The notes under the pieces are model-generated. The model saw only the letters and a list, made by a program, of their open reading frames with translations, searched no databases and was not told the DNA's origin. Below, piece by piece: positions 1 through 44,215 of a stretch of 64,000 nucleotides of DNA. This DNA comes from Lamellibrachia columna (taxonomy: Eukaryota > Annelida > Polychaeta > Sabellida > Siboglinidae), in the NCBI GenBank assembly GCA_963662155.1, contig OY759262.1:10395000-10458999 (forward strand), written 5' to 3'. Within the stretch, counting starts at the first letter, position 1. Every line of letters starts with the position of its first letter. Made by a program: the position numbers and the translations under genes.

Positions 1-1044
1 AGAAAGACAACAATGCCAACTGCAAACAGGGAAGATCATCCTTATTCATTGCGATCACGAAAGTCTGCTGATCACAGTTATGCCAGCAGAAAGTAGAGGG
101 TAGATTATGAAACAAACAGAAAACAGAACACTTCTTACAAATGTGAACTTTCTACTTTCTCCCAGTTTCATCACTCATAGACCTGCAACCACAATACAAG
201 AAACCACCAACAGACAATGGACCATGACTGGCACATGGTGCCATCTTGTGAGCTATACATCAATCGACATTCGAAGACATCACTCAGCATGGGCTGACAT
301 ACACAACTGCATAAGATTGACTACAGCAGACGACACTTTGAAAAAACTGAAGGATTCAACACATCTAGAAAAATGTAGGTTTTACTATTGCATTGCCATT
401 GAAATACCTTGAATTGCAACATACCCTTTGGATATGGTGCATGACCAAAGCATACATTTTGACTAACACAATATTGCCTGTTGTTATTTATGGAATGTGG
501 CTCCATAGAGATATGACTTGCTGTCAGACACAGACTGTTATGACAAAGATGACTGGCATCTAAGCCAGGTTCAACACGTGTCATTTTGTGTTCAAGCATA
601 TAACTTAAACAATGCACTGTAACCGTTCTGTAACCACACTCAAAACGGCAATTAATCACACCTTAGTCACTGAATTTCCCTTTTTTGCACCTTGTCCACA
701 ACTGACACTGCCCATTGGCAGACAATACCACCTTTTCTTGTAATTTTACAGTGTACATTTTACAAAAATCAACATCCATGTTTTTTGTTTCCGTTGCCAT
801 GACACTCTATTTGGAGTCAGACCACAGTTGGGAATTGCATTGGTGGCCATGTTAACGTTTTGTCTGATTATAAGAAAACCTGACCATCAAAAATCCTGAA
901 ATAAATGTGCAGCAACTGCCATCATCTCATTGACATGCTCACCAACGTTAATCAAAATCACATGCCTCCAGCTCTTTTAAAATGCCCCCATGTGCGATGC
1001 CCGTCAATATTAAAAAAAAATAGTTGTGTATTCATGCGCCCACG
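1..1044 (+). mobile_element. 3' end of an upstream full-length Mutator-like element (cut by window edge)
   Basis: Matches 19079-20124 almost base for base: the basic transposase C-terminus (stop near 96), the 3' region, and the terminal string ending GCGCCCACG at 1044. It is followed without spacer by the element's 5' region (TGGCCCATAG...). This shows that the array continues to the left and that a full-length copy lies on both sides of the eleven deleted copies. The left end is outside the window, so the true 5' terminus cannot be fixed. Confidence 0.85.
321..800 (-). pseudogene. His-Cys box (I-PpoI-like) homing-endonuclease ORF, upstream copy, with in-frame stop
   Basis: Minus-strand copy of the ORF at 19428-19880. 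The start codon is at 800-798. An in-frame TAA at 665-663 replaces the Tyr codon of the other copy (SDYGVINC). Downstream of the stop the core is well kept: ASHLCHN, with the His expected to be the catalytic general base of the His-Me finger, then EPHS, N..R..C and C.GH. A later Cys of the other copy (YPKC) is Gly here, probably losing a zinc ligand. The C-terminus reads through to 321 because the downstream stop differs. Family assignment is by motif recognition; it is non-functional as written. Confidence 0.6.
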
Positions 1045-2396
1045 TGGCCCATAGCAGAAAAATTCCCATAAATCCCTCCTCCAGTCAAACTCCCAAAAAA
1101 ATACACTATTTCACAGCCAATAGCTTCTATAAACAAACCTGTGAATATTCATGCTCAAAGGCACTCATGTCACATAATATGAATTTATTAAATTCACATT
1201 TCACAATTTCGCGTGCCCTACATTCGTGTGAAACAGTAAACAGGAAGGTCAACTGTGGTCTTACCACAAATAAAAATGGTAACTGTGCAGAATTGTTTTT
1301 AATTTAGACTGTTGATAAAGGTAAATGAAAATCATGCATTCTTGCAAAAAATCTATGTCCTACCTAGTTGTTGGAGTTGCTTACATACACAAGGAACCAC
1401 CACCTGTGGTGGGCAGAACACACATATATGAGCTACTTCAGCTTGAGACAGTCTGTATTCTAGTACGATACTAGAATACACTCACTTTTTCAGCTCATTC
1501 GAATGAACTTGTAACATAATTTTGGGAATAGTCCAGCATGTGTTCTGTAATCAAATTCTATATAGCCAGTTGTTATTCCATACTGAAAGTTATAATAATT
1601 TTTTACCTGGTGCCACAATACACCTATGTAAACAGACCCAAATATCACCTTTGAGTGTGGATTACTGAAAAGACAGACACCTCAACTTGTCGAATTGCAT
1701 AACATTACATAACCTACTTAGAGGAGTCCTCAAAAACAACTCACCTTCCATGTGAAACAGTTACGTCAGCTCACTAGGCCATATCAGATAACAGCTGGGC
1801 CTGTCCAGGATTTTCTCAACTCCCAATAGATGTGTGCTCTTCACATGGACTTGAGTAAAGGTGACTGTGTCTAATTAACTGAAATAAACAAAAGTTGACT
1901 GCTAAGTAATTATATTATAATGTGACTTGTTCTGCTTTGATGTAACTTATCAGAGGGAGGCTGCACTAGTTTGAAGATGTCCCCACCCCCCCCCCCCAAA
2001 TATACTGGTCTCCTGTCACTGTCATCTGGTTTCTCAGGTGGATTAGACGTCTTTGCATTCAAATAACGGTTTTGTCACTTTAATTAGCAATTTTACTTGG
2101 ATTTACCTGGGATTTTAAAATGGAGGAGACAACACATGATAGTAGTAGTAGTAGTAGTAGTAGTAGAAAGAGTGAGGAGAAATGTCCACCAGCTGGTGGA
2201 ATTAAGATGAAAATTGGTGGCTTCAAGACCGGCCACTGTTACCACAAACCATCAGACCCAGCAATCCAACAGGAACCCAGTGGGGTTAGCAGTGGGGTTT
2301 GGTTGCCACGGCTAAGCCAGTATGACTTTGACAGAGTGGTGCAAACCACTCCTTCAGGATTGCTGGCAGTTTCCGACGTGTATTCATGCGCCCACG
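1045..2396 (+). repeat. Array unit 1: internally deleted Mutator-like element (1352 bp)
   Basis: Begins TGGCCCATAG and ends at the junction GACGTGTATTC...CCCACG. It consists of the element's 5' region, the first ~82 transposase codons and the last ~19 bp of the 3' end. The truncated ORF is 2120-2440 (106 aa), starting MEETTHDSSSS, with the longest Ser tract (AGT repeat) of the array, and it ends in the next unit. A poly-C run (near 1983-1998) is the other length-variable site. Confidence 0.85.
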
Positions 2397-3729
2397 TGGC
2401 CCATAGCAGACAAATTCACATAAATCCCTCCGCCAGTTAAACTCTCAAAAAATGCACTATTTTACAGCCAATAGCTTCTATCAACAAACCTGTGAATATT
2501 CATGCTCAAAGGCACTCATTTCACATAATATGAATTTATTAAGTTCACATTTCACAATTTCGCGTGCCCTACATTCGTGTGAAACAGTAAACAGGAAGGT
2601 CAACTGTGGTCTTACCCCAAATAAAAATGGTAACTGTGTAGAATTTTTTTTTATTTAGACTGTTGATAAAGGTAAATGAAAATCATGCATATATGCAAAA
2701 AATCTATGTCCTACCTAGTTGTTGGAGTTGCATACATACACAAGGAACCACCACCTGTGGTGGGCAGAACACACATATATGAGCTACTTCAGCTTGAGAC
2801 AGTCTGTATTCTAGTACGATACTCGAATACACTAACTTTTTCAGCTCACTCGAATGAACTTGTAACATAATTTTTGGAATAGTCCAGCATGTGTTCTGTA
2901 ATCAAATTCTATATAGCCAGTTGTTAGTCCATACTGAAAGTTATAATAATTTTTTACCTGGTGCCACAATACACCTATGTAAACAGACCCAAATATCACC
3001 TTTGAGTGTGGATTACTGAAAAGACAGACACCTCAACTTGACGAATTGCATAACATTACATAACCTACTTAGTGGAGTCCTCAAAAACAACTCACCTTCC
3101 ATGTGAAACAGTTACTTCAGTTCAATAGGCCATATCAGATAACAGCTGGGCCTGTCCAGGATTTTCTCAACTCCCAATAGATGTGTGCTCTTCACATGGA
3201 CTTGAGCAAAGGTGACGGTGTCTAATTAACTGAAATAAACAAAAGTTGACGGCTAAGTAATTATATTATAATGTGACTTGTTCTGCTTTGATGTGACTTA
3301 TCAGAGGGAGGCTGCACTAGTTTGAAGATGTCCCCCCCCTTAATATACTGGTCTCCTGTCATTGTCATCTGGCTTCTCAGGTGGATTAGATGCCTTTGCA
3401 TTCAGATAACGGTTTTGTCACTTTCATTAGTAATTTTACTTGGATTTACAAGAGATTTTAAAATGGAGGAGACAACACATGATAGTAGTAGTAGTAGTAG
3501 AAAGAGTGAGGAGAAATGTCCACCTGCTGGTGGAATTAAGATGAAAATTGGTGGCTTCAAGACCGGCCACTGTTACCACAAACCATCAGATGCAGCAATC
3601 CAACAGGAACCAGTGGGGTTAGCAGTGGGGTTGGGTTGCCACGGCTAAGCCAGGATGACTTTAACAGAGTGGTGCAAACCACTCCTTCAGGATTGCTGGC
3701 AGTTTCCGACGTGTATTCATGCGCCCACG
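2397..3729 (+). repeat. Array unit 2 (1333 bp)
   Basis: Same structure as unit 1. The truncated transposase ORF starts at 3463 but a one-base C loss (near 3611, GGAACCAGTGG instead of GGAACCCAGTGG) shifts the frame and it stops at 3648. The same lesion is in unit 5, so the two share ancestry. Confidence 0.85.
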
Positions 3730-5066
3730 TGGCCCATAGCAGAAAAATTCCCATAAATCCCTCAGCCAGTTAAACTCTCCAAAAAATGCACTATTTCACA
3801 GCCAATAGCTTCTATAAACAAACCTGTGAATATTCATGCTCAAAGGCACTCATGTCACATAATATTAATTTATTAAGTTCACATTTCACAATTTCGCGTG
3901 CCCTACATTCGTGTGAAACAGTAAACAGGAAGGTCAACTGTGGTCTTACCCCAAATAAAAATGGTAACTGTGCATAATTTTTTTTAATTTAGACTGTTGA
4001 TAAAGGTAAATGAAAATCATGCATTCATGCAAAAAATCTATGTCCTACCTAGTTGTTGGAGTTGCTTACATACACAAGGAACCACCACCTGTGGTTGGCA
4101 GAACACACATATATGAGCTACTTCAGCTTGAGACAGTATGTATTCTAGTACGATACTCGAATGCACTCACTTTTTCAGCTCACTCGAATGAACTTGTAAC
4201 ATAATTTTTGGAATAGTCCAGCATGTGTTCTGTAATCAAATTCTATATAGCCAGTTGTTATTCCATACTGAAAGTTATAATAATTTTTTACCTGGTGCCA
4301 CAATACACCAATGTAAACAGACCCAAATATCACCTTTGAGTGTGGATTACTGAAAAGCCAGACACCTCAACTTGTCGAATTGCATAACATTACATAACCT
4401 ACTTAGTGGAGTCCTCAAAAACAACTCACCTTCCATGTGAAACAGTTACGTCAGCTCACTAGGCCATATCAGATAACAGCTGGGCCTGTCTAGGATTTTC
4501 TCAACTCCCAATAGATGTTTGCTCTTCACGTGGACTTGAGCAAAGGTGACTGTGTCTAATTAACTGAAATAAACAAAAGTTGACTGCTAAGTAATTATAT
4601 TATAATGTGACTTGTTCTGCTTTGATGTAACTTATCAGAGGGAGGCTGCATTAGATTGAAGATGTCCCCACACACCTAATATACTGGTCTCCTGTCACTG
4701 TCATCTGGTTTCTCAGGTGGATTAGACGTCTTTGCATTCAGATAATGGTTTTGTCACTTTCATTAGTAATTTTACTTGGATTTACCTGGGATTTTAAAAT
4801 GGAGGAGACAACACATGATAGTAGTAGTAGTAGTAGAAAGAGTGAGGAGAAATGTCCACCTGCTGGTGGAATTAAGATGAAAATTGGTGGCTTCAAGACC
4901 GGCCACTGTTACCACAAACCATCAGATGCAGCAATCCAACAGGAACCCAGTGGGGTTAGCAGTGGGGTTTGGTTGCCACGGCTAAGCCAGGATGACTTTG
5001 ACAGAGTGGTGCAAACCACTCCTTCAGGATTGCTGGCAGTTTCCGACGTGTATTGATGCGCCCACG
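3730..5066 (+). repeat. Array unit 3 (1337 bp)
   Basis: Truncated transposase ORF 4799-5056. The ORF stops at the deletion junction because TATTCATG has become TATTGATG. The poly-C site is replaced by CCCCACACACC, a variant shared with unit 4 only. Confidence 0.85.
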
Positions 5067-6402
5067 TGGCCCATAGCAGAAAAATTCCCATAAATCCCTC
5101 CGCCAGTTAAACTCTCCAAAAAATGCACTATTTCACAGCCAATAGCTTCTGTAAACAAACCTGTGAATATTCATGCTCAAAGGCACTCATGTCACATAAT
5201 ATGAATTTATTACGTTCACATTTCACAATTTCGCGTGCCCTACATTCGTGTGAAACAGTAAACAGGAAGGTCAACTGTGGTCTTACCCCAAATAAAAATG
5301 GTAACTGTGCATAATTTTTTTTTATTTAGACTTGATAAAGGTAAATGAAAATCATGCATTCATGCAAAAAATCTATGTCCTACCTAGTTGTTGGAGTTGC
5401 TTACATACACAAGGAACCACCACCTGTGGTTGGCAGAACACAAATATATGAGCTACTTCAGCTTGAGACAGTCTGTATTCTAGTACGATACTCGAATACA
5501 CTAACTTTTTCAGCTCACTCGAATGAACTTGTAACATAATTTTTTGGAATAGTCCAGCATGTGTTCTGTAATCAAATTCTATATAGCCAGTTGTTATTCC
5601 ATACTGAAAGTTATAATAATTTTTTACCTGGTGCCACAATACACCAATGTAAACAGACCCAAATATCACATTTGAGTGTGGATTACTGAAAAGCCAGACA
5701 CCTCAACTTGTCGAATTGCATAACATTACATATCCTACTTAGTGGAGTCCTCAAAAACAACTCACCTTCCATGTGAAACAGTTACGTCAGCTCACTAGGC
5801 CATATCAGATAACAGCTGGGCCTGTCTAGGATTTTCTCAACTCCCAATAGATGTGTGCTCTTCACATGGACTTGAGCAAAGGTGACTGTGTCTAATTAAC
5901 TGAAATAAACAAAAGTTGACTGCTAAGTAATTATATTATAATGTGACTTGTTCTGCTTTGATGTAACTTATCAGAGGGAGGCTGCATTAGATTGAAGATG
6001 TCCCCACACACCTAATATACTGGTCTCCTGTCACTGTCATCTGGTTTCTCAGGTGGATTAGACGTCTTTGCATTCAGATAATGGTTTTGTCACTTTCATT
6101 AGTAATTTTACTTGGATTTACCTGGGATTTTAAAATGGAGGAGACAACACATGATAGTAGTAGTAGTAGTAGAAAGAGTGAGGAGAAATGTCCACCTGCT
6201 GGTGGAATTAAAATGAAAATTGGTGGCTTCAAGACCGGCCACTGTTACCACAAACCATCAGATGCAGCAATCCAACAGGAACCCAGTGGGGTTAGCAGTG
6301 GGGTTTGGTTGCCACGGCTAAGCCAGGATGACTTTGACAGAGTGGTGCAAACCACTCCTTCAGGATTGCTGGCAGTTTCCGACGTGTATTCATGCGCCCA
6401 CG
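5067..6402 (+). repeat. Array unit 4 (1336 bp)
   Basis: Truncated transposase ORF 6135-6446 is open (103 aa). Shares the CACACC variant and the ATG in 'ataatggttttg' with unit 3, so units 3 and 4 look like a recent local duplication. Confidence 0.85.
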
Positions 6403-7735
6403 TGGCCCATAGCAGAAAAATTCCCATAAATCCCTCCGCCAGTTAAACTCTCCAAAAAATGCACTATTTCACAGCCAATAGCTTATGTAAACAAACCTGT
6501 GAATATTCATGCTCAAAGGCACTCATGTCATATAATATGAATTTATTAAGTTCACATTTCACAATTTCGCGTGCCCTACATTCGTGTGAAACAGTAAACA
6601 GGAAGGTCAACTGTGGTCTTACCCCAAATAAAAATGGTAACTGTGCATAATTTTTTTTAATTTAGACTGTTGATAAAGGTAAATGAAAATCATGCATTCA
6701 TGCAAAAAATCTATGTCCTACCTAGTTGTTGGAGTTGCTTACATACACAAGGAACCACCACCTGTGGTTGGCAGAACACACATATATGAGCTACTTCAGC
6801 TTGAGACAGTATGTATTCTAGTACGATACTCGAATACACTAACTTTTTCAGCTCACTCGAATGAACTTGTAACATAATTTTTGGAATAGTCCAGCATGTG
6901 TTCTGTAATCAAATTCTATATAGCCAGTTGTTAGTCCATACTGAAAGTTATAATAATTTTTTACCTGGTGCCACAATACACCTATGTAAACAGACCCAAA
7001 TATCACCTTTGGGTGTGGATTACTGAAAAGACAGGCACCTCAACTTGACGAATTGCATAACATTACATAACCTACTTAGTGGAGTCCTCAAAAACAACTC
7101 ACCTTCCATGTGAAACAGTTACATCAGCTCAATAGGCCATATCAGATAACAGCTGGGCCTGTCCAGGATTTTCTCAACTCCCAATAGATGTGTGCTCTTC
7201 ACATGGACTTGAGCAAAGGTGACTGTGTCTAATTAACTGAAATAAACAAAAGTTGACGGCTAAGTAATTATATTATAATGTTACTTGTTCTGCTTTGATG
7301 TGACTTATCAGAGGGAGGCTGCACTAGTTTGAAGATGTCCCCCCCTTAATATACTGGTCTCCTGTCACTGTCGTCTGGTTTATCAGGTGGATTAGATGCC
7401 TTTGCATTCAGATAACGGTTTTGTCACTTTCATTAGTAATTTTACTTGGATTTACCTGAGATTTTAAAATGGAGGAGACAACACATGATAGTAGTAGTAG
7501 TAGTAGAAAGAGTGAGGAGAAATGTCCACCGTCTGGTGGAATTAAGATGAAAATTGGTGGCTTCAAGACCGGCCACTGTTACCACAAACCATCAGATGCA
7601 ACAATCCAACAGGAACCAGTGGGGTTAGCAGTGGGGTTGGGTTGCCACGGCTAAGCCAGGATGACTTTGACAGAGTGGTGCAAACCACTCCTTCAGGATT
7701 GCTGGCAGTTTCCGACGTGTATTTATGCGCCCACG
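6403..7735 (+). repeat. Array unit 5 (1333 bp)
   Basis: Truncated transposase ORF 7469-7654, frameshifted by the same single C loss as unit 2 (spacing 4006 bp, three units). Confidence 0.85.
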
Positions 7736-9074
7736 TGGCCCATAGCAGAAAAATTCCCATAAATCCCTCAGCCAGTTAAACTCTCCAAAAAATGCACTAT
7801 TTCACAGCCAATAGCTTCTATAAACAAACCTGTGAATATTCATGCTCAAAGGCACTCATGTCACATAATATGAATTTATTAATTTGACATTTCACAATTT
7901 CGCGTGCCCTACATTCGTGTGAAACAGTAAACAGGAAGGTCAACTGTGGTCTTACCCCAAATAAAAATGGTAACTGTGCAGAATTTTTGTTTATTTAGAC
8001 TGTTGATAAAGGTAAATGAAAATCATGCATTCATGCAAAAAATCTATGTCCTACCTAGTTGTTGGAGTTGCTTACATACACAAGGAACCACCACCTGTGG
8101 TTGGCAGAACACACATATATGAGCTACTTCAGCTTGAGACAGTATGTATTCTAGTACGATACTCGAATGCACTCACGTTTTCAGCTCACTCGAATGAAAT
8201 TTTAACATAATTTTTGGAATAGTCCAGCATGTGTTCTGTAATCAAATTCTATATAGCCAGTTGTTATTCCATACTGAAAGTTATAATAATTTTTTACCTG
8301 GTGCCACAATACACCAATGTAAACAGACCCAAATATCACCTTTGAGTGTGGATTACTGAAAAGCCAGACACCTCAACTTGTCGAATTGCATAACATTACA
8401 TAACCTACTTAGTGGAGTCCTCAAAAACAACTCACCTTCCATGTGAAACAGTTACGTCAGCTCACTAGGCCATAACAGATAACAGCTGGGCCTGTCTAGG
8501 ATTTTCTCAACTCCCACTAGATGTGTGCTCTTCACATGGACTTGAGCAAAGGTGACTGTGTCTAATTAACTGAAATAAACAAAAGTTGACTGCTAAGTAA
8601 TTATATTATAATGTGACTTGTTCTGCTTTGATGTAACTTATCAGAGGGAGGCTGCACTAGTTTGAAGATGTCCCCCCCCCTTAATATACTGGTCTCCTGT
8701 CACTGTCATCTGGTTTCTCAGGTGGATTAGATGTCTTTGCATTCAGATAACGGTTTTGTCACTTTCATTAGTAATTTTACTTGGATTTACCTGGAATTTT
8801 AAAATGGAGGAGACAACACATGATAGTAGTAGTAGTAGTAGTAGAAAGAGTGAGGAGAAATGTCCACCTGCTGGTGGAATTAAGATGAAAATTGGTGGCT
8901 TCAAGACCGGCCACTGTTACCACAAACCATCAGATGCAGCAATCCAACAGGAAACCAGTGGGGTTAGCAGTGGGGTTTGGTTGCCACTGCTAAGCCAGGA
9001 TGACTTTGACAGAGTGGTGCAAACCACTCCTTCAGGATTGCTGGCAGTTTCCGACGTGTATTTATGCGCCCACG
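7736..9074 (+). repeat. Array unit 6 (1339 bp)
   Basis: Truncated transposase ORF 8804-9118 is open, with one extra AGT (Ser) codon. Its first part resembles unit 3 (shared SNALTF variant). Confidence 0.85.
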
Positions 9075-10416
9075 TGGCCCATAGCAGAAAAATTCCCATA
9101 AATCCCTCCGCCAGTTAAACTCTCCAAAAAATGCACTATTTCACAGCCAATAGCTTCTATAAACAAACCTGTGAATATTCATGCTCAAAGGCACTCATGT
9201 CACATAATATGAATTTATTAAGTTCACATTTCACAATTTCGCGTGCCCTACATTCGTGTGAAACAGTAAACAGGAAGGTCAACTGTGGTCTTACCCCAAA
9301 TAAAAATGGTAACTGTGCATAATTTTTTTTTATTTAGACTGTTGATAAAGGTAAATGAAAATCATGCATTCATGCAAAAATTCTATGTCCTACCTAGTTG
9401 TTGGAGTTGCTTACATACACAAGGAACCTCCACCTGTGGTGGGCAGAACACACATATATGAGCTACTTCAGCTTGAGACAGTCTCTATTCTAGTACGATA
9501 CTCGAATACACTAACTTTTTCAGTTCACTCGAATGAACTTCTAACATAATTTTTGGAATAGTCCAGCATGTGTTCTGTAATCAAATTCTATATAGCCTGT
9601 TGTTATTCCATATTGAAAGTTATAATAATTTTTTACCTGGTGCCACAATACACCTATGTAAACATACCCAAATATCACCTTTGAGTGTGGATTACTGAAA
9701 AGACAGACACCTCAACTTGTCGAATTGCATAACATTACATAACCTACTTAGTGGAGTCCTCAAAAACAACTCACCTTCCATGTGAAACAGTTACGTCAGC
9801 TCACTAGGCCATATCAGATAACAGCTTGGCCTGTCCAGGATTTTCTCAACTCCCAATAGATGTGTGCTCTTCACATGGACTTGAGTAAAGGTGACTGTGT
9901 CTAATTAACTGAAATAAACAAAAGTTGACTGCTAAGTAATTATATTATAATGTGACTTGTTCTGCTTTGATGTAACTTATCAGAGGGAGGCTGCACTAGT
10001 TTGAAGATGTCCCCACCCCCCCCCCCTAATATACTGGTCTCCTGTCACTGTCATCTGGTTTCTCAGGTGGATTAGACGTCTTTGCATTCAGATAACGGTT
10101 TTGTCACTTTCATTAGTAATTTTACTTGGATTTACCTGGGATTTTAAAATGGAGGAGACAACATATGATAGTAGTAGTAGTAGTAGAAAGAGTGAGGAGA
10201 AATGTCCACCTGCTGGTGGAATTAAGATGAAAATTGGTGGCTTCAAGACCGGCCACTGTTACCACAAACCATCAGATGCAGCAATCCAACAGGAATCCAG
10301 TGGGGTTAGCAGTGGGGTTTGGTTGCCACTGCTAAGCCAGGATGACTTTGACAGAGTGGTGCAAACCACTCCTTCAGGATTGCTGGCAGTTTCCGACGTG
10401 TATTCATGCGCCCACG
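9075..10416 (+). repeat. Array unit 7 (1342 bp)
   Basis: Truncated transposase ORF 10149-10460 is open (103 aa). Confidence 0.85.
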
Positions 10417-11757
10417 TGGCCCATAGCAGAAAAATTCCCATAAATCCCTCCGCCAGTTAAGCTCTCCAAAAAATGCACTATTTCACAGCCAATAGCTTCT
10501 ATAAACAAACCTGTGAATATTCATGCTCAAAGGCACTCATGTCACATAATATGAATTTATTAAGTTCACATTTCACAATTTCGCGTGCCCTACATTCGTG
10601 TGAAACAGTAAACAGGAAGGTCAACTGTGGTCTTACCCCAAATAAAAATGGTAACTGTGCAGAATTTTTTTTTATTTAGACTTGATAAAGGTAAATGAAA
10701 ATCATGCATTCATGCAAAAAATCTATGTCCTACCTAGTTGTTGGAGTTGCTTACATACACAAGGAACCACCACCTGTGGTGGGCAGAACACACATATATG
10801 AGCTACTTCAGCTTGAGACAGTTTGTATTCTAGTACGATACTCTAATACACTCACTTTTTCAGCTCACTCGAATGAACTTGTAACATAATTTTTTGAATA
10901 GTCCAGCATGTGTACTGTAATCAAATTCTATATAGCCAGTTGTTATTCCATACTGAAAGTTATAATAATTTTTTACCTTGTGCCACAATACACCTATGTA
11001 AACAGACCCAAATATCACCTTTGAGTGTGGATTACTGAAAAGACGGACATTTCAACTTGTCGAATTGCATAACATTACATAACCTACTTAGTGGAATCCT
11101 CAAAAACAACTCACCTTCCATGTGAAACAGTTACGTCAGCTCACTAGGCCATATCAGATAACAGCTGGGCCTGTCCAGGATTTTCTCAACTCCCAATAGA
11201 TGTGTGCCCTTCACATGGACTTGAGCAAAGGTGACTGTGTCTAATTAACTGAAATAAACAAAAGTTGACTGCTAAGTAATTATATTATAATGTGACTTGT
11301 TCTGCTTTGATGTAACTTATCAGAGGGAGGCTGCACTAGTTTGAAGATGTCCCCACCCCCCCCCCCCTAATATACTGGTCTCCTGTCACTGTCATCTGGT
11401 TTCTCAGGTGGATTAGACGTCTTTGCATTCAGATAACGGTTTTGTCACTTTCATTAGTAATTTTACTTGGATTTACCTGGGATTTTAAAATGGAGGAGAC
11501 AACATATGATAGTAGTAGTAGTAGTAGAAAGAGTGAGGAGAAATGTCCACCTGCTGGTGGAATTAAGATGAAAATTGGTGGCTTCAAGACCGGCCACTGT
11601 TACCACAAACCATCAGATGCAGCAATCCAACAGGAATCCAGTGGGGTTAGCAGTGGGGTTTGGTTGCCACGGCTAAGACAGGATGACTTTGACAGAGTGG
11701 TGCAAACCACTCCTTCAGGATTGCTGGCAGTTTCCGACGTGTATTCATGCGTCCACG
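10417..11757 (+). repeat. Array unit 8 (1341 bp)
   Basis: Truncated transposase ORF 11490-11801 is open. Together with unit 9 it forms a dimer repeated as units 10-11 (spacing 2679 bp): the peptide and the RLRQDD and SCVHV variants are identical to unit 10. Confidence 0.85.
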
Positions 11758-13095
11758 TGGCCCATAGCAGAAAAATTCCCATAAATCCCTCCGCCAGTTA
11801 AATTCTCCAAAAAATGCACTATTTCACAGCCAATAGCTTCTATAAACAAACCTGTGAATATTCATGCTCAAAGGCACTCATGTCACATAATATGAATTTA
11901 TTAAGTTCACATTTCACAATTTCGCGTGCCCTACATTCGTGTGAAACAGTAAACAGGAAGGTCAACTGTGGTCTTACCCCAAATAAAAATGGTAATTGTG
12001 CAGACAAAAATTTAATTTAGCCTGTTGATAAAGGTAAATGAAAATCATGCATTTATGCAAAAAAATTATGTCCTACCTAGTTGTTGGAGTTGCTTACATA
12101 CACAAGGAACCACCACCTGTGGTGGGCAGATCACACATATATGAGCTACTTCAGCTTGAGATAGTCTGTATTCTAGTACGATACTCGAATACACTCACTT
12201 TTTTCAGCTCACTCGAATTAACTTGTAACATAATTTTTGGAATAGTCCAGCATGTGTTCTGTAATCAAATTCTATATAGCCAGTTGTTATTCCATACTGA
12301 AAGTTATAATAATTTTTTACCTGGTGCCACAATACACCTATGTAAACAGACCCAAATATCACCTTTGAGTGTGGATTACTGAAAAGACGGACACTTCAAC
12401 TTGTCGAATTGCATAACATTACATAACCTACTTAGTGGAGTCCTCAAAAACAACTCACATTCCATGTGAAACAGTTACGTCAGCTCACTAGGCCATATCA
12501 GATAACAGCTGGGCCTGTCCAGGATTTTCTCAACTCCCAATAGATGTGTGCTCTTCACATGGACTTGAGTAAAGGTGACTGTGTCTAATTAACTGAAATA
12601 AAAAAAATTTGACTGCTAAGTAATTATATTATAATGTGACTTGTTCTGCTTTGATGTAACTTATCAGAGGGAGGCTGCACTAGTTTGAAGATGTCCCCCC
12701 CCCCTTAATATACTGGTCTCCTGTCACGGTCATCTGGTTTCTCATGTGGATTAGACGTCTTTGCATTCAGATAACGGTTTTGTCACTTTCATTAGTAATT
12801 TTACTTGGATTTACCTGGGATTTTAACATGGAGGAGACAACACATGATAGTAGTAGTAGTAGTAGAAAGAGTGAGGAGAAATGTCCACCTGCTGGTGGAA
12901 TTAAGATGAAAATTGGTGGCTTCAAGACCGGCCACTGTTACCACAAACCATCAGATGCAGCAATCCAACAGGAACCCAGTGGGATTAGCAGTGGGGTTTG
13001 GTTGCCACGGCTAAGCCAGGATGACTTTGACAGAGTGGTGCAAACCACTCCTTCAGGATTGCTGGCAGTTTCCGACGTGTATTCATGCGCCCAAG
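11758..13095 (+). repeat. Array unit 9 (1338 bp)
   Basis: Truncated transposase ORF 12828-13139 is open. Its end junction is CCAAGTGG instead of CCACGTGG, as in unit 11. The variants 'gcagacaaaaattt' and RSHIYELLQLEIV are also shared with unit 11. Confidence 0.85.
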
Positions 13096-14436
13096 TGGCC
13101 CATAGCAGAAAAATTCCCATAAATCCCTCCGCCATTTAAACTCTCCAAACAATGCACTATTTCACAGCCAATAGCTTCTATAAACAAACCTGTGAATATT
13201 CATGCTCAAAGGCACTCATGTCACATAATATGAATTTATTAAATTCACATTTCACAATTTCGCCTGGCCTACATTCGTGTGAAACAGTAAACAGGAAGGT
13301 CAACTGTGGTCTTACCCCAAATAAAAATAGTAATTGTGCAGACAAAAATTTAATTTAGCCTGTTGATAAAGGTAAATGAAAATCATGCATTCATGCAAAA
13401 AATCTATGTCCTACCTAGTTGTTGGAGTTACTTACATACACAAGGAACCACCACCTGTGGTGGGCAGAACACACATATATGAGCTACTTCAGCTTGAGAC
13501 AGTCTGTATTCTAGTACGATTCTCGAATACACTCACTTTTTCAACTCACTCGAATGAACTTGTAACATAATTTTTGGAATAGTCCAGCATGTGTTCTGTA
13601 ATCAAATTCTATATAGCCAGTTGTTATTCCATACTGAAAGTTATAATAATTTTTTACCTGGTGCCATAATACACCTATGTAAACAGACCCAAATATCACC
13701 TTTGAGTGTGGATTACTGAAAAGACGGACACTTCAACTTGTCGAATTGCATAACATTACATAACCTACTTAGTGGAATCCTCAAAAACAACTCACCTTCC
13801 ATGTGAAACAGTTACGTCAGCTCACTAGGCCATATCAGATAACAGCTGGGCCTGTCCAGGATTTTCTCAACTCCCAATAGATGTGTGCCCTTCACATGGA
13901 CTTGAGCAAAGGTGACTGTGTCTAATTAACTGAAATAAACAAAAGTTGACTGCTAAGTAATTATATTATAATGTGACTTGTTCTGCTTTGATGTAACTTA
14001 TCAGAGGGAGGCTGCACTAGTTTGAAGATATCCCCACCCCCCCCCCTAATATACTGGTCTCCTGTCACTGTCATCTGGTTTCTCAGGTGGATTAGACGTC
14101 TTTGCATTCAGATAACGGTTTTGTCACTTTCATTAGTAATTTTACTTGGATTTACCTGGGATTTTAAAATGGAGGAGACAACATATGATAGTAGTAGTAG
14201 TAGTAGAAAGAGTGAGGAGAAATGTCCACCTGCTGGTGGAATTAAGATGAAAATTGGTGGCTTCAAGACCGGCCACTGTTACCACAAACCATCAGATGCA
14301 GCAATCCAACAGGAATCCAGTGGGGTTAGCAGTGGGGTTTGGTTGCCACGGCTAAGACAGGATGACTTTGACAGAGTGGTGCAAACCACTCCTTCAGGAT
14401 TGCTGGCAGTTTCCGACGTGTATTCATGCGTCCACG
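13096..14436 (+). repeat. Array unit 10 (1341 bp)
   Basis: Truncated transposase ORF 14169-14480 is open and its peptide is identical to that of unit 8. Confidence 0.85.
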
Positions 14437-15780
14437 TGGCCCATAGCAGAAAAATTCCCATAAATCCCTCCGCCAGTTAAACTCTCCAAAAAATGCACTA
14501 TTTCACAGCCAATAGCTTCTATAAACAAACCTGTGAATATTCATGCTCAAAGGCACTCATGTCACATAATATGAATTTATTAAGTTCACATTTCACAATT
14601 TCGCGTGCCCTACATTCGTGTGAAACAGTAAACAGGAAGGTCAACTGTGGTCTTACCCCAAATAAAAATGGTAATTGTGCAGACAAAAATTTAATTTAGC
14701 CTGTTGATAAAGGTAAATGAAAATCATGCATTTATGCAAAAAAATTATGTCCTACCTAGTTGTTGGAGTTGCTTACATACACAAGGAACCACCACCTGTG
14801 GTGGGCAGATCACACATATATGAGCTACTTCAGCTTGAGATAGTCTGTATTCTAGTACGATACTCGAATACACTCACTTTTTTCAGCTCACTCGAATTAA
14901 CTTGTAACATAATTTTTGGAATAGTCCAGCATGTGTTCTGTAATCAAATTCTATATAGCCAGTTGTTATTCCATACTGAAAGTTATAATAATTTTTTACC
15001 TGGTGCCACAATACACCTATGTAAACAGACCCAAATATCACCTTTGAGTGTGGATTACTGAAAAGACGGACACTTCAACTTGTCGAATTGCATAACATTA
15101 CATAACCTACTTAGTGGAGTCCTCAAAAACAACTCACATTCCATGTGAAACAGTTACGTCAGCTCACTAGGCCATATCAGATAACAGCTGGGCCTGTCCA
15201 GGATTTTCTCAACTCCCAATAGATGTGTGCTCTTCACATGGACTTGAGCAAAGGTGACTGTGTCTAATTAACTGAAATAAAAAAAAGTTGACTGCTAAGT
15301 AATTATATTATAATGTGACTTGTTCTGCTTTGATGTAACTTATCAGAGGGAGGCTGCACTAGTTTGAAGATGTCCCCACCCCCCCCCCCCTAATATACTG
15401 GTCTCCTGTCACGGTCATCTGGTTTCTCATGTGGATTAGACGTCTTTGCATTCAGATAACGGTTTTGTCACTTTCATTAGTAATTTTACTTGGATTTACC
15501 TGGGATTTTAACATGGAGGAGACAACACATGATAGTAGTAGTAGTAGTAGAAAGAGTGAGGAGAAATGTCCACCTGCTGGTGGAATTAAGATGAAAATTG
15601 GTGGCTTCAAGACCGGCCACTGTTACCACAAACCATCAGATGCAGCAATCCAACAGGAACCCAGTGGGGTTAGCAGTGGGGTTTGGTTTCTACGGCTAAG
15701 CCAGGATGACTTTGACAGAGTGGTGCAAACCACTCCTTCAGGATTGCTGGCAGTTTCCGACGTGTATTCATGCGCCCAAG
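14437..15780 (+). repeat. Array unit 11 (1344 bp)
   Basis: Truncated transposase ORF 15513-15824 is open. It is the near twin of unit 9 and has the CCAAGTGG end junction. Directly followed by the full-length element. Confidence 0.85.
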
Positions 15781-16837
15781 TGGCCCATAGCAGAAAAATT
15801 CCCATAAATCCCTCCGCCATTTAAACTCTCCAAACAATGCACTATTTCACAGCCAATAGCTTCTATAAACAAACCTGTGAATATTCATGCTCAAAGGCTC
15901 TCATGTCACATAATATGAATTTATTAAATTCACATTTCACAATTTCGCCTGCCCTACATTCGTGTGAAACAGTAAACAGGAAGGTCAACTGTGGTCTTAC
16001 CCCAAATAAAAATAGTAATTGTGCAGACAAAAATTTAATTTAGCCTGTTGATAAAGGTAAATGAAAATCATGCATTCATGCAAAAAATCTATGTCCTACC
16101 TAGTTGTTGGAGTTACTTACATACACAAGGAACCACCACCTGTGGTGGGCAGAACACACATATATGAGCTACTTCAGCTTGAGACAGTCTGTATTCTAGT
16201 ACGATTCTCGAATACACTCACTTTTTCAACTCACTCGAATGAACTTGTAACATAATTTTTGGAATAGTCCAGCATGTGTTCTGTAATCAAATTCTATATA
16301 GCCAGTTGTTATTCCATACTGAAAGTTATAATAATTTTTTACCTGGTGCCATAATACACCTATGTAAACAGACCCAAATATCACCTTTGAGTGTGGATTA
16401 CTGAAAAGCCAGACACCTCAACTTGTCGAATTGCATAACATTACATAACCTACTTAGTGGAGTCCTCAAAAACAACTCACCTTCCATGTGAAACAGTTAC
16501 GTCAGCTCACTAGGCCATATCAGGCCTGTCCAGGATTTTCTCAACTCCCAATAGATGTGTGCTCTTCACATGGACTTGAGTAAAGGTCACTGTGTCTAAT
16601 TAACTGAAATAAACAAAAGTTGACTGCTAAGTAATTATATTATAATGTGACTTGTTCTGCTTTGATGTAACTTATCAGAGGGAGGCTACACTAGTTTGAA
16701 GAGTTCCCCCCCCCCTAATATACTGGTCTCCTGTCACTGTCATCTGGTTTCTCAGGCGGATTAGACGTCTTTGCATTCAGATAACGATTTTGTCACTTTC
16801 ATTAGTAATTTTACTTGGATTTACCTGGGATTTTACA

Positions 16838-19173
16838 ATGGAGGAGACAACATATGATAGTAGTAGTAGTAGTAGAAAGAGCGAGGAGAAATGTCCACCT
16901 GCTGGTGGAATTAAGATGAAAATTGGTGGCTTCAAGACCGGCCACTGTTACCACAAACCATCAGATGCAGTAATCCAACAGGAACCCAGTGGGGTTAACA
17001 GTGGGGTTTGGTTGCCACGGCTAAGCCAGGATGACTTTGACAGAGTGGTGCAAACCACTCCTTCAGGGTTGCTGGCAGTTTCAGACGCAGAGGGCCGGCC
17101 AGGCACGAGCAATATTCTACGGCCACAGCTTGATCAATGCCCTGACCTAACATACATCTATCTTCAAGCTGACGTACAGACAGATATTCATGCAGTTTCT
17201 GAAATGCGTCTACTTAGTGTGGACAAAAATGCATCAATGTGGAATGATTGCTTTAAAGAGCATGCTAGCAGAGAGGACACATGTATTCTTCCACACTTCG
17301 AAGTACATGAGAAAAAATTTGGTTTGTGTTGGCAACAGTCATTGTCCTGTACAGCCTGTCACTACAAGTCACGTATGTATAAACTGTATTCCGAAGTAAA
17401 CACGGGCAGTCGTGGTCAGAAACCGTGTGCTCCAAATGTAGCCATCCATGTAGGACTACAAGATACAACGATGGGAAACACAAAGTTGCGACACATTCTG
17501 CCCACAACAAACACACCTCCCCCAAGTCGAAGCGGGATGCAAAGGACATCCAACCGGGTTGCCACAATTACTTCTCAGTCCACGACTGATGACCTACAGC
17601 AGAAGAGGGAAAAAACCAGAGATAAATGTTCTGCGTGGTCTTCCAGCAAATGCACCAATCAATATAAGCATGGATGTGAGGTACAATCAACATCCCTGAA
17701 AAACAGCTACGGTTGTGGACAGAGTGCAAGTCAAGCAGGAGGAACCGCGATTGATTGGCAGACGGACAAGCATGAGATTCTAGGTTTTCACATGGAAAAC
17801 AAGCTATGCAAACTAGGCTCATCACTTCGCAATCAAGGTCAAAATGTGTCGTGCACAGGCCATCAAGGATGTACAGCCACGATTCGTGTGGTCGATCCAA
17901 TGTCAGAATATGAAATAGGCCGCCAAATCGGAGTGAGCTTTGCCCAACAACAGGTCGGACTAAAATTCGTTGCAACAGACGGTGATGCGAAAGCATTTCA
18001 TGGGTTACAGGATGCCATGCCAACAGTCGCGGCAGAACGGCAGGCTGACACAACACATCTCGGTCAGACACAGTTCTGACATATCATGAGAGCATCTTTC
18101 TCATCCAGAATGTTCCCGGGGGAGAATGCCATGGTGAGAGCTGAAAACAAGAAAATTTTTGCAGAGGATGTAAGAACACGATGCCAGAAAATCTACACTT
18201 TATGCTGGTGACATTAGAATGATAACTACTAAGATGCCAAAGATAATCCAAGCAACACTGGACTGTTATTCTGGCTCATGTCAGAACTGTCACCCACCGA
18301 CATGGAATTGTCTGTCGTGGAGGCAAGCGAAACAACTGGTGGAAAAGGTCACACTTTATGCTGGTGACATTAGAATGATAACTACTAAGATGCCAAAAAT
18401 AATCCAAGCAACACTGGACTGTTATTCTGGCTCATGTCAGAACTGTCACCCACCGACATGGAATTGTCTGTCGTGGAGGCAAGCGAAACAACTGGTGGAA
18501 AAGGTCACAGCATTTGAAGGCATGTGGCCTGACACGACTCAATATGACAGATGAAGACCGAGCAACACTTAAAGGATTAATAGAAATGCGACTTGGAAAT
18601 TCAGCACTCCAGATGACACGACACAGACTTACAACTGACAAGAATGAATCCATTAACCGATCATTCAGTGCTTCATTGCCGAAGAATGTTAAATTCAGTA
18701 GAAATGCACATGGACGAGTGAGTTCAGTGATCGATCGCATAAATTATGGAGCGGGGAATTCAATTCTGCGCAAGTTGGAGAATGTACATTGTCCTATTAC
18801 GAGAGGTGGACAGGTCGCTAGAGCTGTCAAGCAAATCCAGCATGAAGTGGAATACCAGAGACAATACAAACGTCGATCATCAGTGCGTCTGCATATCCGT
18901 CATACCAAGTTAAAGCGCATGCAGAACTACTTCGATTCAAACAGAAACCGCCGTCCAGAAGATCGATACCTGAAGTGTCAGCTTGATCCAAAACCATCTA
19001 CTCTTAAAGGGAAGAAAAAGCCAGCTTCAGAAACGCCAGCAGCAGTAGTTAAGCCAGTGGTCACAAGGAGTCGCCGCAGAAAGACAACACTGCCAACTGC
19101 AAACAGGGAAGATCATCCTTATTCATTGCGATCACGAAAGTCTGCTGATAACAGTTATGCCAGCAGAAAGTAG
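16838..19173 (+). pseudogene. Mutator-like transposase, broken by one stop, two frameshifts and an internal duplication
   Basis: Expected to be the DDE transposase that moves the element. The ATG at 16838 opens a frame to an in-frame TGA at 18077-18079. The first part has a Ser tract, a His/Cys-rich N-terminus and then C..H.GCTATI and DPMSEYEIGR..GVSF followed by FVATDGD, which looks like the core with an acidic catalytic position. After the TGA the same frame stays open for about 38 codons, then shifts near 18195 and again near 18514. The last 219 codons include DKNESINRSFSASLP and a very basic tail ending YASRK at 19173. A 156-bp (52-codon) segment is tandemly duplicated at 18195-18506. Assignment to the metazoan Mutator-like transposase family is from motif memory; it cannot make an intact enzyme. 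Confidence 0.7.
18195..18506 (+). repeat. In-frame 156-bp tandem duplication inside the transposase
   Basis: ACACTTTATGCTGGTGACATT starts at 18195 and again at 18351. The two copies differ at a single position I can see (AAAGATAA against AAAAATAA). Each encodes 52 residues with a Cys cluster (CYSGSCQNC) and a basic LSWRQAKQLVEK segment. The length is divisible by three, so it does not itself break the frame. Confidence 0.9.
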
Positions 19174-19427
19174 AGGGTAGATTATGAAACAAACAGAAAA
19201 CAGAACACTTCTTACAAATGTGAACTTTCTACTTTCTCCCAGTTTCATCACTCATAGACCTGCAACCACCATACAAGAAACCACCAACAGACAATGGACC
19301 ATGACTGGCACATGGTGCCATCTTGTGAGCTATACATCAATCGACATTCGAAGACATCACTCAGCATGGGCTGACAGACACAACTGCATAAGATTGACTA
19401 CAGCAGACGACACTACTTTAAAAAAAC

Positions 19428-19880
19428 TTAAGGATTCAACACATCTAAAAAAATGTAAGTTTTACTATTGCATTGCCATTGAAATACCTTGAATTGCAAC
19501 ATACACTTTGGATATGGTGCATGACCAAAGCATACATTTTGACTAACACAATATTGCCTGTTGTTATTTATGGAATGTGGCTCCATAGAGATATGACTTG
19601 CTGTCAGACACAGACTGTTAAGACAAAGACGACTGGCATCTAAGCCAGGTTCAACACGTGTCATTTTGTGTTCAAGCATATAAATTAAACGATGCACTGT
19701 AACCGCTCTGTAGCCACACTCAAAACGGCAATTAATCACACCATAGTCACTGAATTTCCCTTTTTTGCACCCTGTCCACAACTGACACTGCCCATTGGCA
19801 GACAATACCACCTTTTCTTGTAATTTTGCAGTGTACTTTTTACAAAAATCAACATCCATGTTTTCTGTTTCCGTTGCCAT
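19428..19880 (-). CDS. His-Cys box (I-PpoI-like) endonuclease ORF carried by the transposon
   Basis: Uninterrupted 150-codon ORF convergent with the transposase, between its stop and the element's right end. Start MATETENMDVDF at 19880. It contains CQLWTGC at residues ~32-38, GVINCRFECGYR, a V.HRL.YMLEH segment, then ASRLCLNSLC, SHISMEPHSINNNRQYC and CFGHAPYPKC. This Cys/His spacing resembles the zinc-binding loop of homing endonucleases (PF05551, His-Me finger). In I-PpoI the His of the S-H-L-C motif is the general base. Here it is Arg, while the copy at the left end of the window keeps His. The Asn of the INNNR segment, possibly the metal ligand, is kept. So this copy is open but probably catalytically dead. 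The alternative is an unrelated zinc-loop DNA-binding protein. Function within the transposon is unknown. Confidence 0.6.
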   Translation of the reverse strand: MATETENMDVDFCKKYTAKLQEKVVLSANGQCQLWTGCKKGKFSDYGVINCRFECGYRAVTVHRLIYMLEHKMTRVEPGLDASRLCLNSLCLTASHISMEPHSINNNRQYCVSQNVCFGHAPYPKCMLQFKVFQWQCNSKTYIFLDVLNP

Positions 19881-20124
19881 GACACTCTATTTGGAGTCAG
19901 ACCACAGTTGGGAATTGCATTGGTGGCCATGTTAACGTTTTGTCTGATTATAAGAAAACCTGACCATCAAAAATTCTGAAATAAATGTGCAGCAACTGCC
20001 ATCATCTCATTGACATGCTCACCAACGTTTATCAAAATCACATGCCTCCAGCTCTTTTAAAATGCCCCCATGTGCGATGCCCGTCAATATTTACAAAAAA
20101 TAGCTGTGTATTCATGCGCCCACG

Positions 20125-20244
20125 ATTTTGTAAGTTAAGGGAATTTGTTAGAAAAATTTTTTTTTAGTAATCAATAAACAACTATTGCTTATAGTAAGAT
20201 CATGATAATATAATAAGCACACAGGTCAATGGAAATATACTTAC
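20125..20244. other. Array right flank inside an intron-like stretch
   Basis: AT-rich unique sequence between the transposon end (20124) and the donor of the last DUF4806 exon (20244-20243). No ORF or repeat is seen. Confidence 0.5.
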
Positions 20245-23200
20245 TTGAGACCACTTTGCACAGCAGATGGTCTCGAAAGGGTAGTTTTCCCTTTTGCCCC
20301 ATAACACCGAACAAACTCATAAGGCCATGAGTCATCAGTGACCGCATAATGGCCCTGCAGGTTCTAGCAAGGCTTGCACCCTCTAGTGACGAAAGAATTT
20401 GAATCTGTGTAAAATAAATATATATTTTATATAAAATGACAACTCTATTTTAAAGGAACAAAGTTTGATCATTTCTATATTATAAAATTGTTTGCATGCA
20501 TTCATGCACGCACGCGCGCACACACGTACATATGTATGTATGCACTTGCAGAAACTCATTATTGTCACTCACAAGCAAATTTTTATTCCTAAACCAATAA
20601 TAAATAGGTAATTTATTTTTTTTTTGATTATTTTAACCTTTTGCTTCCCATGTTATAATGTTGGACCAACAATCAGTTACAGTCAGAGTATCTGTAGCTA
20701 TATGAAGTGAACTTGTCTTGAAGGAACACAAACATTATTGACTAAACAATTATGAAGCTGGACCATTTTGATATTCATACATTCATGAAATAATTTATAT
20801 TTCACACCTTTAAGCATAATTTGAAATGTCACAATAATTCCTAGAAATAGGTTCTGTATAGAAAGCTTTCCAAATTAATTTAGACTCTAAGGTTGCTTCA
20901 AAAATACAGTAAAAAAGCAATGCCACTTTATAATTGACTCAAACATATCTTAAACATACTAAATCAATTCCTTATGTCATCATCTTCACCCAACTGTTTT
21001 TCAAAATTGCTCAGTTCATTGAGTGTGTTCAGTTTCTTGCCATTAGGCAGAATGGTGTCTAATGTCAAGTCATCATCTGGCTGTGAAGTGACGAGAGATA
21101 ATTTTATCTCCTGCATTGTTTTCTCCAGTTTCTCTAGCTTGGCCAGAACTGAAAAATTGAGACAACTATATCCGCTTGAACCGATGCAAGCAATTTTAGG
21201 TGGGGCTTCCCCCTGCAAGCAATCCCCAAAGGGTGAGAAAGAAGTACATTTATTTATGGGAATTGTGCCAAGGCTAAAAAGAGTGTCAAATCTTCATTTG
21301 GGGTTCCCTGATTATGGAATGACCAATGCCAGCAATTTTAGTTGGGTCCTCCCCCTGCCAGTAACCCCCAAATGGTAAGAAAAGGGGCATTTATTTAATT
21401 GAATGATGCTTATTTAATGGGGTGACAAGGAGGATAAAAACAGTGTCAAATTTTCCCATGGGGTCCCCTGAGTAGGGAAAGACCAATGGTATATTAGCAC
21501 TTAAAACGGCCTACATGTAAAGAAGCATAAAGGAGTACCTTGAATGCAGAAGGAGCTCGACATCATCTGTGATCTGCCAGGACTCTCCATTTGCAGTCCA
21601 TCACCCTGTGGACGTTGTTGTTTGCCGAGAACTTGCGGCAGCTTAAGTTGGGCCTGGGATGAACTGCAACTAGGTCGAAATGGTGGCTCTGTACGCTTAG
21701 AAGATTTACCTCTGGGCAAATCACTGCCACTTTCAGTATCCAGTGCTGTATTGAACATAAATGTTACAATTATATATTATTATCTATTAGTTTATTTGAC
21801 ATGAAAGTCACAGTGACATGAAATATTTAGGATATACATTTGGACAGAGACATCACATTCTTACAATAGTAGATATAGAGAAACCAAGCAGACAAAACTC
21901 AGACTTCTTCAATAAATAGCCATTAGACCTGTACAAGTGAATCAGATGACATTTAATGTCCACATTATGTTATAGTATTCAACAAGTGTGATAGACATGT
22001 GTACAGTAAATGCACGATACTTTTGATATTAAAATCATAGCTCGTTAATCCAGACACATACAGTGGGTATCAAGGTGTCAGGATTAATCAAGTTCCACTG
22101 TCCTTTGTTGTACATTAACTATATTTTATGTATTTTTGTATAATTGTTACCTGAGAAACTGAAAGGAGGTGGAGGGAGTGCAACTGTTTCCACAGTATCT
22201 GGAGTTTCCTCAACTTCTGAATCTGAAACTATTTTCAGGGTTGTACAGAGTTTGTCTTGGTAGAATACCGATATGTTCTTGAAGTTAAACCTACAATCAA
22301 ATTGATATTTGTCCAGAATCAGACACCAAAGTCTTTCATAACAACAGAATGTCCACAAATCACATTTCAAAATCTTTTGTGAAAATAGAAAACATACATT
22401 AACTTCCCATCAAATAAGGTAGAATAAGAAATGTGTTGCAAACACATGTACACATTATACTTATGAATGTTGAATAATGTATGATATAAAATTTTACAAT
22501 TGATTTTAGTTGAATAAAAAGGCCATGTACAAATGTTTGGATAAAAGTATTGGTCATCTTTAAAATTCTGTAACATATAGACACCTCTCATTACAGACCG
22601 CTCTACTGGGAAGATATACATATTGGATGATAAAAGCAAATATGAGATGGGGCATTTTAATTTTCATTACCATCTTCTCCACACTCTTCACTAACTACTG
22701 CCGGTGAATCAGGAGATTGGTAGCGTTTTGGCTTTCGGCAATGCCGCTTCCCCTGTGCTTCATCTGGCTCAACATTAGATGTATCCTCTGCCTTTTTCGC
22801 ATACTTGGAAGCTGTCTCATAGTCGGGGTACTCTGAATTAATCAGGAAAATATCTCAACTTACAACAAAAACAAAGGATCTCCTTGCCTAAATGGACAAA
22901 TATTTAACAATTATTGGTTGGCAGTATACAATACATTTAGAATCAATGAAGCCTGTTGTCACACACTCACAAATGGGTTGATGACAATAGCATGAGTTAA
23001 TTTGTTGGTAAATTGTTGTAAAGCATGCATATACAATGTTGTCGGCCTTCTCATTTTCCATTTCTAATTAATTACAAAATAGCCAATGGTGCGTTTTTTA
23101 TTCTAAAAACAATCACATTTTGACAATTCTCTATCATGAGAACATGACTGCAACAAACCACCCCTCCTATATTCTACTTTACATATCATGAATCTAATAT

Positions 23201-25057: not shown

Positions 25058-25490
25058 ATTTCCTCTATAACTAATGATGCAGAAGATAAGTCATGGCAGA
25101 TGTTATATGTTGGCCAATCCCCTACTAAATGGACAGTTGATCAACAGTACCCCTAGCTGGCAGATAACCCTGTTGAAACTTGGAACTTAATTAGTGTTGC
25201 TGCTAGGGGTAGTGTAGTACTACTATACCACCCCTTGCTATAGTGATGATTACACAAAATAAGTAATGTCACTGGACACAACTGTCTCAGATCTACACAG
25301 TGTTAAGTTGGTAGATTAGCCTTATATTTGGCAAGGATAACATTTGGGAAAGTACATGTGACAGCGTGCTGCATTTTGAGATTGATCTTGACATCAAGTT
25401 TAACAATGAAAAACAATACATTTGTAATACTAATACATTCTAAGTGACTTTTGGTTATTCATCAGTTAGCTACATACCTCGTTGCATCTA
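25058..25490. other. Non-coding flank upstream of the DUF4806-type gene
   Basis: Likely 5' region of the minus-strand gene starting at 25057. A short imperfect palindrome (GTAGTGTAGTACTACTATACCAC) lies near 25210. No TATA or initiator can be assigned with confidence. Confidence 0.3.
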
Positions 25491-25491
25491 C

Positions 25492-25600
25492 AGTCGAGCC
25501 TTGTTATAACGCGGTAGTCGGGGTCCACGACTTCGGACCGCGCTGTAAGCGAGGCGCGTTAGGTGTTCTCATATCTGCCACCAGGGAGCTACTAAACAAC
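25492..25600 (+). mobile_element. pogo/Tigger-like terminal fragment
   Basis: Starts CAGTCGAGCCTTGTTATAACG after a TA dinucleotide, the look of pogo/Tigger-type termini (CAGT...TTATAACG). It continues with GC-rich sequence and CTGCCACCAGGG. No matching inverted end is found downstream, so the element is a fragment. A related degraded segment in the same direction lies at 26097-26160 (ATATAACGCGGTCGG, CTGCCGCCAGGGG). Confidence 0.45.
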
Positions 25601-26096
25601 AGCGACCCCCGCCCGCTGCACCAAGACCAAGAACGCTGTCGAAGCCCCGTGTGCTTGCACCATTATCTTATACGGAAATATGCAGTTTATGGAACTTATT
25701 AAACGAGTATACTAGCATCAACGTGTATTATTTTTAAATGTCACACCCTCTTGACTCTTGAACTAAATAAAACACACGTACGTATTTTGTTATGGAATAG
25801 ATCTACTACGATGATGATGTACTGGACCAACAGGCCTACGAATCGAAAATAATAACCTGGACCTGAGCAGCCGAAAACGTATATGATTTGACAAACGTAG
25901 TATGTAAGCTGATAAAACACAGAAAAATACAATAGGTAGAATTAATAATTGTATCACCTCGTCTTTCAACCGATCTCGACCGAAGCATACATTTATTACG
26001 CACCACTTAACATCGTTTCATATGCGGATGACGAATTCGTATTTTCGTTGGTTTCGCGTCGCGAAAACGATTATATTTACGATGTAATGTAATATT

Positions 26097-26160: not shown

Positions 26161-26306
26161 CAACTGGGCCTGCTTAAACCTACTTAGAATTGCTTTGACA
26201 ATTCTCAAGAAACATTAGGTGAACAATGTCAATGAACGAGTATCAACGTGTTGTTTGTTTTGCGCTGCCGCCGACATCAATCGCTGTCGCTGGCTTCGCT
26301 TCGCAC

Positions 26307-43164: not shown

Positions 43165-43294
43165 AACTACCGACCCATTGCTCTAGCCACAATTGCTAGT
43201 AAATTATTTGAATCCTTGATGTTATCCAGGGTTTATACTTTTTTATCTACATGTGTAAACCAATTTGGATTTAAAAAGCATCACTCAACTGAAA

Positions 43295-43299
<5 letters not shown>
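43165..43299 (+). pseudogene. LINE reverse-transcriptase fragment (45 codons)
   Basis: Reads NYRPIALATIASKLFESLML to QFGFKKHHSTETD, the standard RT block of CR1/L2/Jockey-type LINEs (NYRPISL..., QFGFR..HST). It is cut on the right by a TA microsatellite and has no continuation. Confidence 0.8.

Positions 43300-43346
<47 letters not shown>
43300..43346. repeat. (TA)n microsatellite
   Basis: Uninterrupted TA dinucleotide run joining the RT fragment to the SGNH-like fragment. Confidence 0.95.
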
Positions 43347-43351
<5 letters not shown>

Positions 43352-43688: not shown

Positions 43689-43706
43689 ATTCTGGAAAGA
43701 TTGCAC

Positions 43707-44211: not shown

Positions 44212-44215
<4 letters not shown>
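43707..44215. other. AT-rich stretch with TA tracts
   Basis: Contains TA/TAT-rich runs (43920-44125). 43751-43836 resembles 47271-47345 (ACTGTTCTTAGT.CACAC..., CACGAG(G/A)AGGTGACA), a shared degraded coding-like fragment on the minus strand (HLLVV...). Confidence 0.4.

Follow-up and report, generated by a model that had tools for sequence, protein, structure and literature searches.

In a 64,000-nt stretch of the Lamellibrachia columna genome (assembly GCA_963662155.1, contig OY759262.1, positions 10,395,000-10,458,999; hereafter the window), an open reading frame (ORF) on the minus strand at 19428-19880 is very probably the accessory nuclease gene of a KolobokP DNA transposon. The element would persist here as a decayed multimer of the (LTDR-INT)n type, in which units made of a long terminal direct repeat (LTDR) and an internal region (INT) follow one another directly. 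Judging by its homologues, the ORF is a genuine homing-endonuclease-like nuclease gene of an animal transposon.

KolobokP is a lineage of the Kolobok superfamily with an LTDR-INT-LTDR architecture (Kojima & Bao 2022, Mob DNA 13:24, PMC9587614). As described there, a DDD/E transposase gene is accompanied by a downstream gene for a His-Me finger nuclease on the complementary strand, and the transposase has a C/DxxH motif and a CCHC zinc finger after the first catalytic Asp. The LTDR measures ~450 or 660 bp and has short inverted repeats with 5'-RR..YY-3' ends, the target-site duplication is 3-5 bp, and whole autonomous families from oyster are 4,022-4,748 bp long. The same source reports 228 families across 7 animal phyla and forms that include solo LTDRs and (LTDR-INT)n multimers, and proposes that the nuclease induces unequal crossover.

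We base the assignment to KolobokP on the gene pair, its orientation, the transposase motifs and the multimer form, which together make the identity probable. The window contains the transposase motifs, a downstream nuclease gene on the complementary strand, so that the two genes converge, and abutting tandem units (12 starts) that include deletion derivatives (11 of 11 with the same junction). The last and largest unit, at 4344 bp, is of the expected order of length. The element differs from the published form in having broken genes and, between large units, eleven copies of a single deletion derivative; moreover, the window yielded neither inverted ends nor RR..YY termini nor a right repeat. 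The combination of transposon and nuclease has been known since 2022, and the element is an ordinary member of a known, unusual family. An earlier sequence-only reading had suggested that a nuclease carried by a DDE transposon may cut the ends or junctions of its own element and so might explain the tandem insertion; this is essentially the published hypothesis, reached independently.

The nuclease ORF and its relatives

The genes of the last array unit are as follows.

16790..18079, plus strand: transposase, first reading frame (PF20700 'Mutator', E 1.7e-39), ending at an in-frame TGA (18077-18079)
18080..19173, plus strand: rest of the transposase gene, read in other frames (ORFs 18219-18554 and 18514-19173) and containing a 156-bp direct duplication (18195-18506)
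19428..19880, minus strand: I-PpoI-type His-Me finger nuclease ORF, copy 2 (150 aa, ATG start), with Arg at the I-PpoI H98 position and Leu at H101

The sequence-only reading described a 150-aa antisense ORF with a Cys/His layout like a zinc loop, convergent to the transposase. Its coordinates are exact, and the ORF lies on the minus strand, facing the transposase frames at 16790-18079 and 18514-19173 on the plus strand. The layout exceeds chance, as indicated by a PF05551 match, homologues and conserved positions. In the PF05551 search that the same reading had proposed, the ORF matched at E 7.3e-6 with 26.7 bits, 0.3 bits short of the curated cut-off. A single-sequence search returned 17 proteins at E <= 0.01 (21 candidates) with identities of 61-99% over the matched part, and a profile built from nine sequences returned 318 (597 candidates), 120 of which were listed. 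PF05551 was matched at E <= 0.01 by 16 of the 18 members of the first nuclease alignment (A1), with no other family detected. The nuclease was also matched by 40 phage records, mostly annotated as HNH endonucleases, with E values from 2e-4 and ~30-35% identity among the 20 listed; we read these as probable distant superfamily kinship only. Two scans of viral contigs confirmed no relatives there.

The pair of genes is retained in related elements, as the proposed survey of such elements indicates. Taking equal contig size as a proxy for the same contig, we found 11 size values common to the transposase list (88) and the nuclease list (120 listed of 318), whereas 2000 jittered resamplings gave 1.1 on average and never more than 6. 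In the published survey, the pair is present in most families of the lineage (PMC9587614). A DDE transposon bearing a His-Me finger nuclease is thus borne out, with an I-PpoI-type gene and a DDE transposase gene facing each other within a single element.

Two side observations concern these relatives. One protein (P0104, 538 aa, on a 4825-bp contig) combines PF05551 at 46-111 and PF20700 at 129-318 in a single frame, nuclease first, and its transposase part looks nearly identical to P0050; the fusion, which requires one part to be inverted compared with the usual layout, may have arisen by rearrangement or during assembly. In addition, 38 of the 56 transposase-bearing contigs under 10 kb measure 3.4-4.9 kb, about one unit, a size with which circles, collapsed arrays and plain interspersed elements are all compatible.

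Conserved positions and predicted fold

To place the ORF against I-PpoI, the His-Cys box homing endonuclease of a Physarum polycephalum group I intron, we aligned it with 108 of the 120 listed relatives after removing 12 short, partial or frame-hybrid rows; I-PpoI positions C41, C132, H134 and C138 were equated by order. The motif aligned with I-PpoI is SHLCHN...C...H...E...N...C. The equivalents of C41, C100, C105, H110 and N119 are retained in 108 of 108 relatives and those of S97 and E114 in 106. At the site of the catalytic base, H98, 104 relatives have His, three Tyr and one Arg. All eight aligned positions of the two zinc sites are Cys or His in the window ORF, and they are retained in 99 to 108 of the relatives.

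Structure prediction from the resulting 109-row alignment gave a pLDDT of 85.5 (a prediction from the 18-row alignment A1, with a pLDDT of 33.2, was discarded). I-PpoI is the best fold match of the predicted nuclease, with ~17-20% identity in structural alignments, so that the structural check proposed in the sequence-only reading points to the enzyme group it named. I-HmuI, an HNH homing endonuclease of phage SPO1, scored lower and with less coverage (89 residues), and is placed in a different His-Me group in Kojima & Bao 2022 (PMC9587614). The likeness to I-PpoI thus comprises the predicted fold, the aligned motif and the zinc and active-site positions conserved across the family. The two differ in that I-PpoI is borne by a group I intron, whereas the nuclease in the window is borne by a DNA transposon and has Arg in place of the catalytic base.

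Decay of both nuclease copies

A second copy of the gene lies near the left edge of the window.

324..800, minus strand: nuclease copy 1; SHLCHN kept, in-frame stop at codon 46, R64C, and C126G at the C138 position (the last zinc Cys)

Neither copy looks active. In copy 2, the catalytic pair is incomplete, with H98 replaced by Arg and the N119 position retained; in copy 1, both residues are present behind the in-frame stop. Within the ORF, the copies differ at 15 of 453 positions, of which 12 are non-synonymous (stop changes included) and 3 synonymous, and the flanks differ at 8 of 350 and 5 of 244. Because the differences are mostly non-synonymous and at least as dense in the ORF as in the flanks, nothing indicates selection after the copies split. 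Strong constraint is thus visible in the nuclease family and not in the two copies in the window.

The transposase

The open frame at 16790-18079 diverges from its relatives around the first catalytic Asp, and this copy of the transposase is broken. Among the relatives (alignment A2, 17 sequences), C314, C329, H332, C335, D394 and H397 are invariant; the window copy shows the CCHC residues and DTTH, with motifs assigned following the description in PMC9587614. Between the DxxH motif and the last Glu, C471, C479 and C486 (P0025 numbering) are at least 90% conserved in A2. MuDR/Mutator in the strict sense has no zinc finger between the second and third catalytic residues, according to that paper, and the lineage in the window differs from it, judged by motif comparison, by these conserved Cys. 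The description of the element as a Mutator-like transposon is therefore correct for the domain, PF20700, and not for the superfamily: 'Mutator' is merely Pfam's label, and the element very probably belongs to KolobokP rather than to MuDR/Mutator in the strict sense. A partial second PF20700 fragment is present at 44212-44664 on the minus strand (E 3.8e-9), positionally unrelated to the array.

Anatomy of the tandem array

The spacer-free tandem insertion described in the sequence-only reading is present, with 12 unit starts in register from 1026 to 15762 (units U1 to U12) that each contain GTGTATTCATGCGCCC with at most one mismatch. Adjacent units abut without spacer.

1..1025, plus strand: right-hand portion of another large unit, with 97% identity to the matching portion of the last unit and with the left-hand portion beyond the window
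1026..15761, plus strand: eleven tandem, internally deleted units of ~1.34 kb, 11/11 with the same deletion junction
15762..20105, plus strand: last and largest unit (repeat and internal region), 4344 bp
15762..16217, plus strand: candidate LTDR, 456 bp, bounded by GTGTATTC and GAATACAC, boundaries uncertain
16352..16522, strand not assigned: crossover interval, deleted unit x large unit, with U10-type sites to the left and U12-private changes to the right
20106..20124, plus strand: 19 bp of a unit start, which close the array on its right side and are followed by unrelated sequence, with no further repeat copy found up to 26000

The stretch 1-1044 repeats 19078-20124 at 97.3% identity. The deleted units are 1333-1352 bp each (n=11), and since all of their junctions are identical, the deletion arose once; its right breakpoint coincides, to within one ambiguous base, with the point where the shared unit sequence begins.

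Units differ pairwise by 0.5-4.8%, and divergence grows as units lie farther apart (lag 1, 2.65%; lag 10, 4.06%; lag 11, 3.85%). U9 and U11 are 0.5% apart and have 12 private sites in common. U10 and U12 have 9 sites in common, the last at 16352, and from 16522 onward U12 has private changes, namely a 10-bp deletion and 11 substitutions; a single private substitution of U12 (15899) sits to the left of the switch. The pattern reads as a probable two-unit block duplication plus a crossover that joined the deleted array to a large unit within 16352-16522. The array thus carries the scars of homologous exchange, whatever broke the DNA.

Other features of the window

Another tandem array is present at 26303-27755 (271-bp unit, 5.4 copies, AT-rich), and an ORF at 24527-25057 (minus strand) contains an 18-bp tandem repeat encoding EHDHSD/EHDHSV repeats. 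Two fragments on the minus strand score below their cut-offs, one at 51743-52162 that resembles a non-LTR retrotransposon endonuclease (PF14529, E 1.2e-5) and a GDSL-like lipase fragment at 43281-43706 (PF13472, E 5.3e-6).

Discussion

The probable history of the locus is that the transposase, while active, would have moved the element, and that the array would have grown by unequal crossover between repeats, propagating a single internal deletion. More speculatively, and in line with the published model, the nuclease may have cut the repeats or abutted ends of its own element and so provoked the crossover. Because neither copy in the window looks catalytically competent, a nuclease-driven origin would require an intact copy, earlier or elsewhere, as the source of active protein.

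Several observations weigh against the KolobokP assignment or against a part for the nuclease. The ORF fell just below the Pfam cut-off; a PDB sequence search with the ORF alone gave no match at E <= 1, Foldseek alone gave none against the PDB at E <= 0.001 (best 4.1e-3), and the nuclease profile reached I-PpoI only at E 0.71-0.95. The 8-bp inverted pair GTGTATTC/GAATACAC that bounds the candidate LTDR has a local-alignment score equal to the median of shuffled sequence, and the candidate as placed ends in GT/AC, at odds with RR..YY. In two units, U1 and U2, one of these anchors matches best elsewhere, in A-rich sequence, and a search of U12 and its flanks for inverted ends (14-mers, at most 3 mismatches) gave scattered pairs only. 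A remnant of a right repeat was sought in 20125-26000 on both strands; the scores, 30 and 29, stayed below the null maxima, 32 and 33. With no right repeat after the last unit, LTDR-INT-LTDR is not seen as such, and the array's left end, like a target-site duplication if there is one, falls outside the window. Finally, as neither nuclease copy looks active, nothing in the window connects the nuclease to the array.

The inactive look of both copies favours the view that the array is a satellite whose tandem repeats multiplied through ordinary unequal crossover or replication slippage, with the nuclease uninvolved. The predominance of non-synonymous changes (12 of the 15 ORF differences), at a density no lower than in the flanks, agrees with this view, as does the increase of divergence with lag, which is expected from repeated local exchange. 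However, multimers are common in the KolobokP lineage, according to PMC9587614, which calls for a cause, and an active copy of the nuclease could have worked in trans or earlier. We give the satellite explanation somewhat less than an even chance. That the array is instead an assembly artefact is very unlikely: long near-identical repeats are difficult to assemble, but the units are 0.5-4.8% apart with structured shared sites, and multimers have been reported from several genomes in that paper.

It is scarcely credible that the element is a MuDR/Mutator transposon with a chance antisense ORF resembling a zinc loop. The Pfam label of the transposase domain and the 0.3-bit shortfall of the ORF would suit such a reading, but the ORF has 318 relatives, five zinc or catalytic positions retained in 108 of 108, and I-PpoI as its best predicted fold, and the transposase has the zinc-finger and DxxH features of Kolobok, by comparison with the description in PMC9587614. 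A chance ORF was rejected on the homologues, profile matches, conserved positions and I-PpoI fold.

A more specific version of the self-cleavage idea places the nuclease target at the 8-bp palindrome CCACGTGG, found at the unit start in 10 of the 12 units. The right end of the array lies one base past the centre of this palindrome (CCACG, then unrelated sequence), and cleavage by a nuclease from an intact copy would have both grown the array and destroyed the last repeat. We consider this highly doubtful, because U3 has 8 perfect palindromes of at least 8 bp within 1337 bp, so that a break at most 2 bp from some centre is expected in ~2-3% of cases by chance, before other ideas are counted. 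If true, the element would be a transposon homing into its own repeats.

The gain over the 2022 KolobokP paper is modest. Raw sequence alone independently recovers a transposon lineage that unites two mobility systems, and whether the nuclease causes the multimers is a directly testable question. At this locus the exchanges form a dated series and two decayed nuclease genes lie next to a large array, which bears on the need for nuclease activity in array upkeep.
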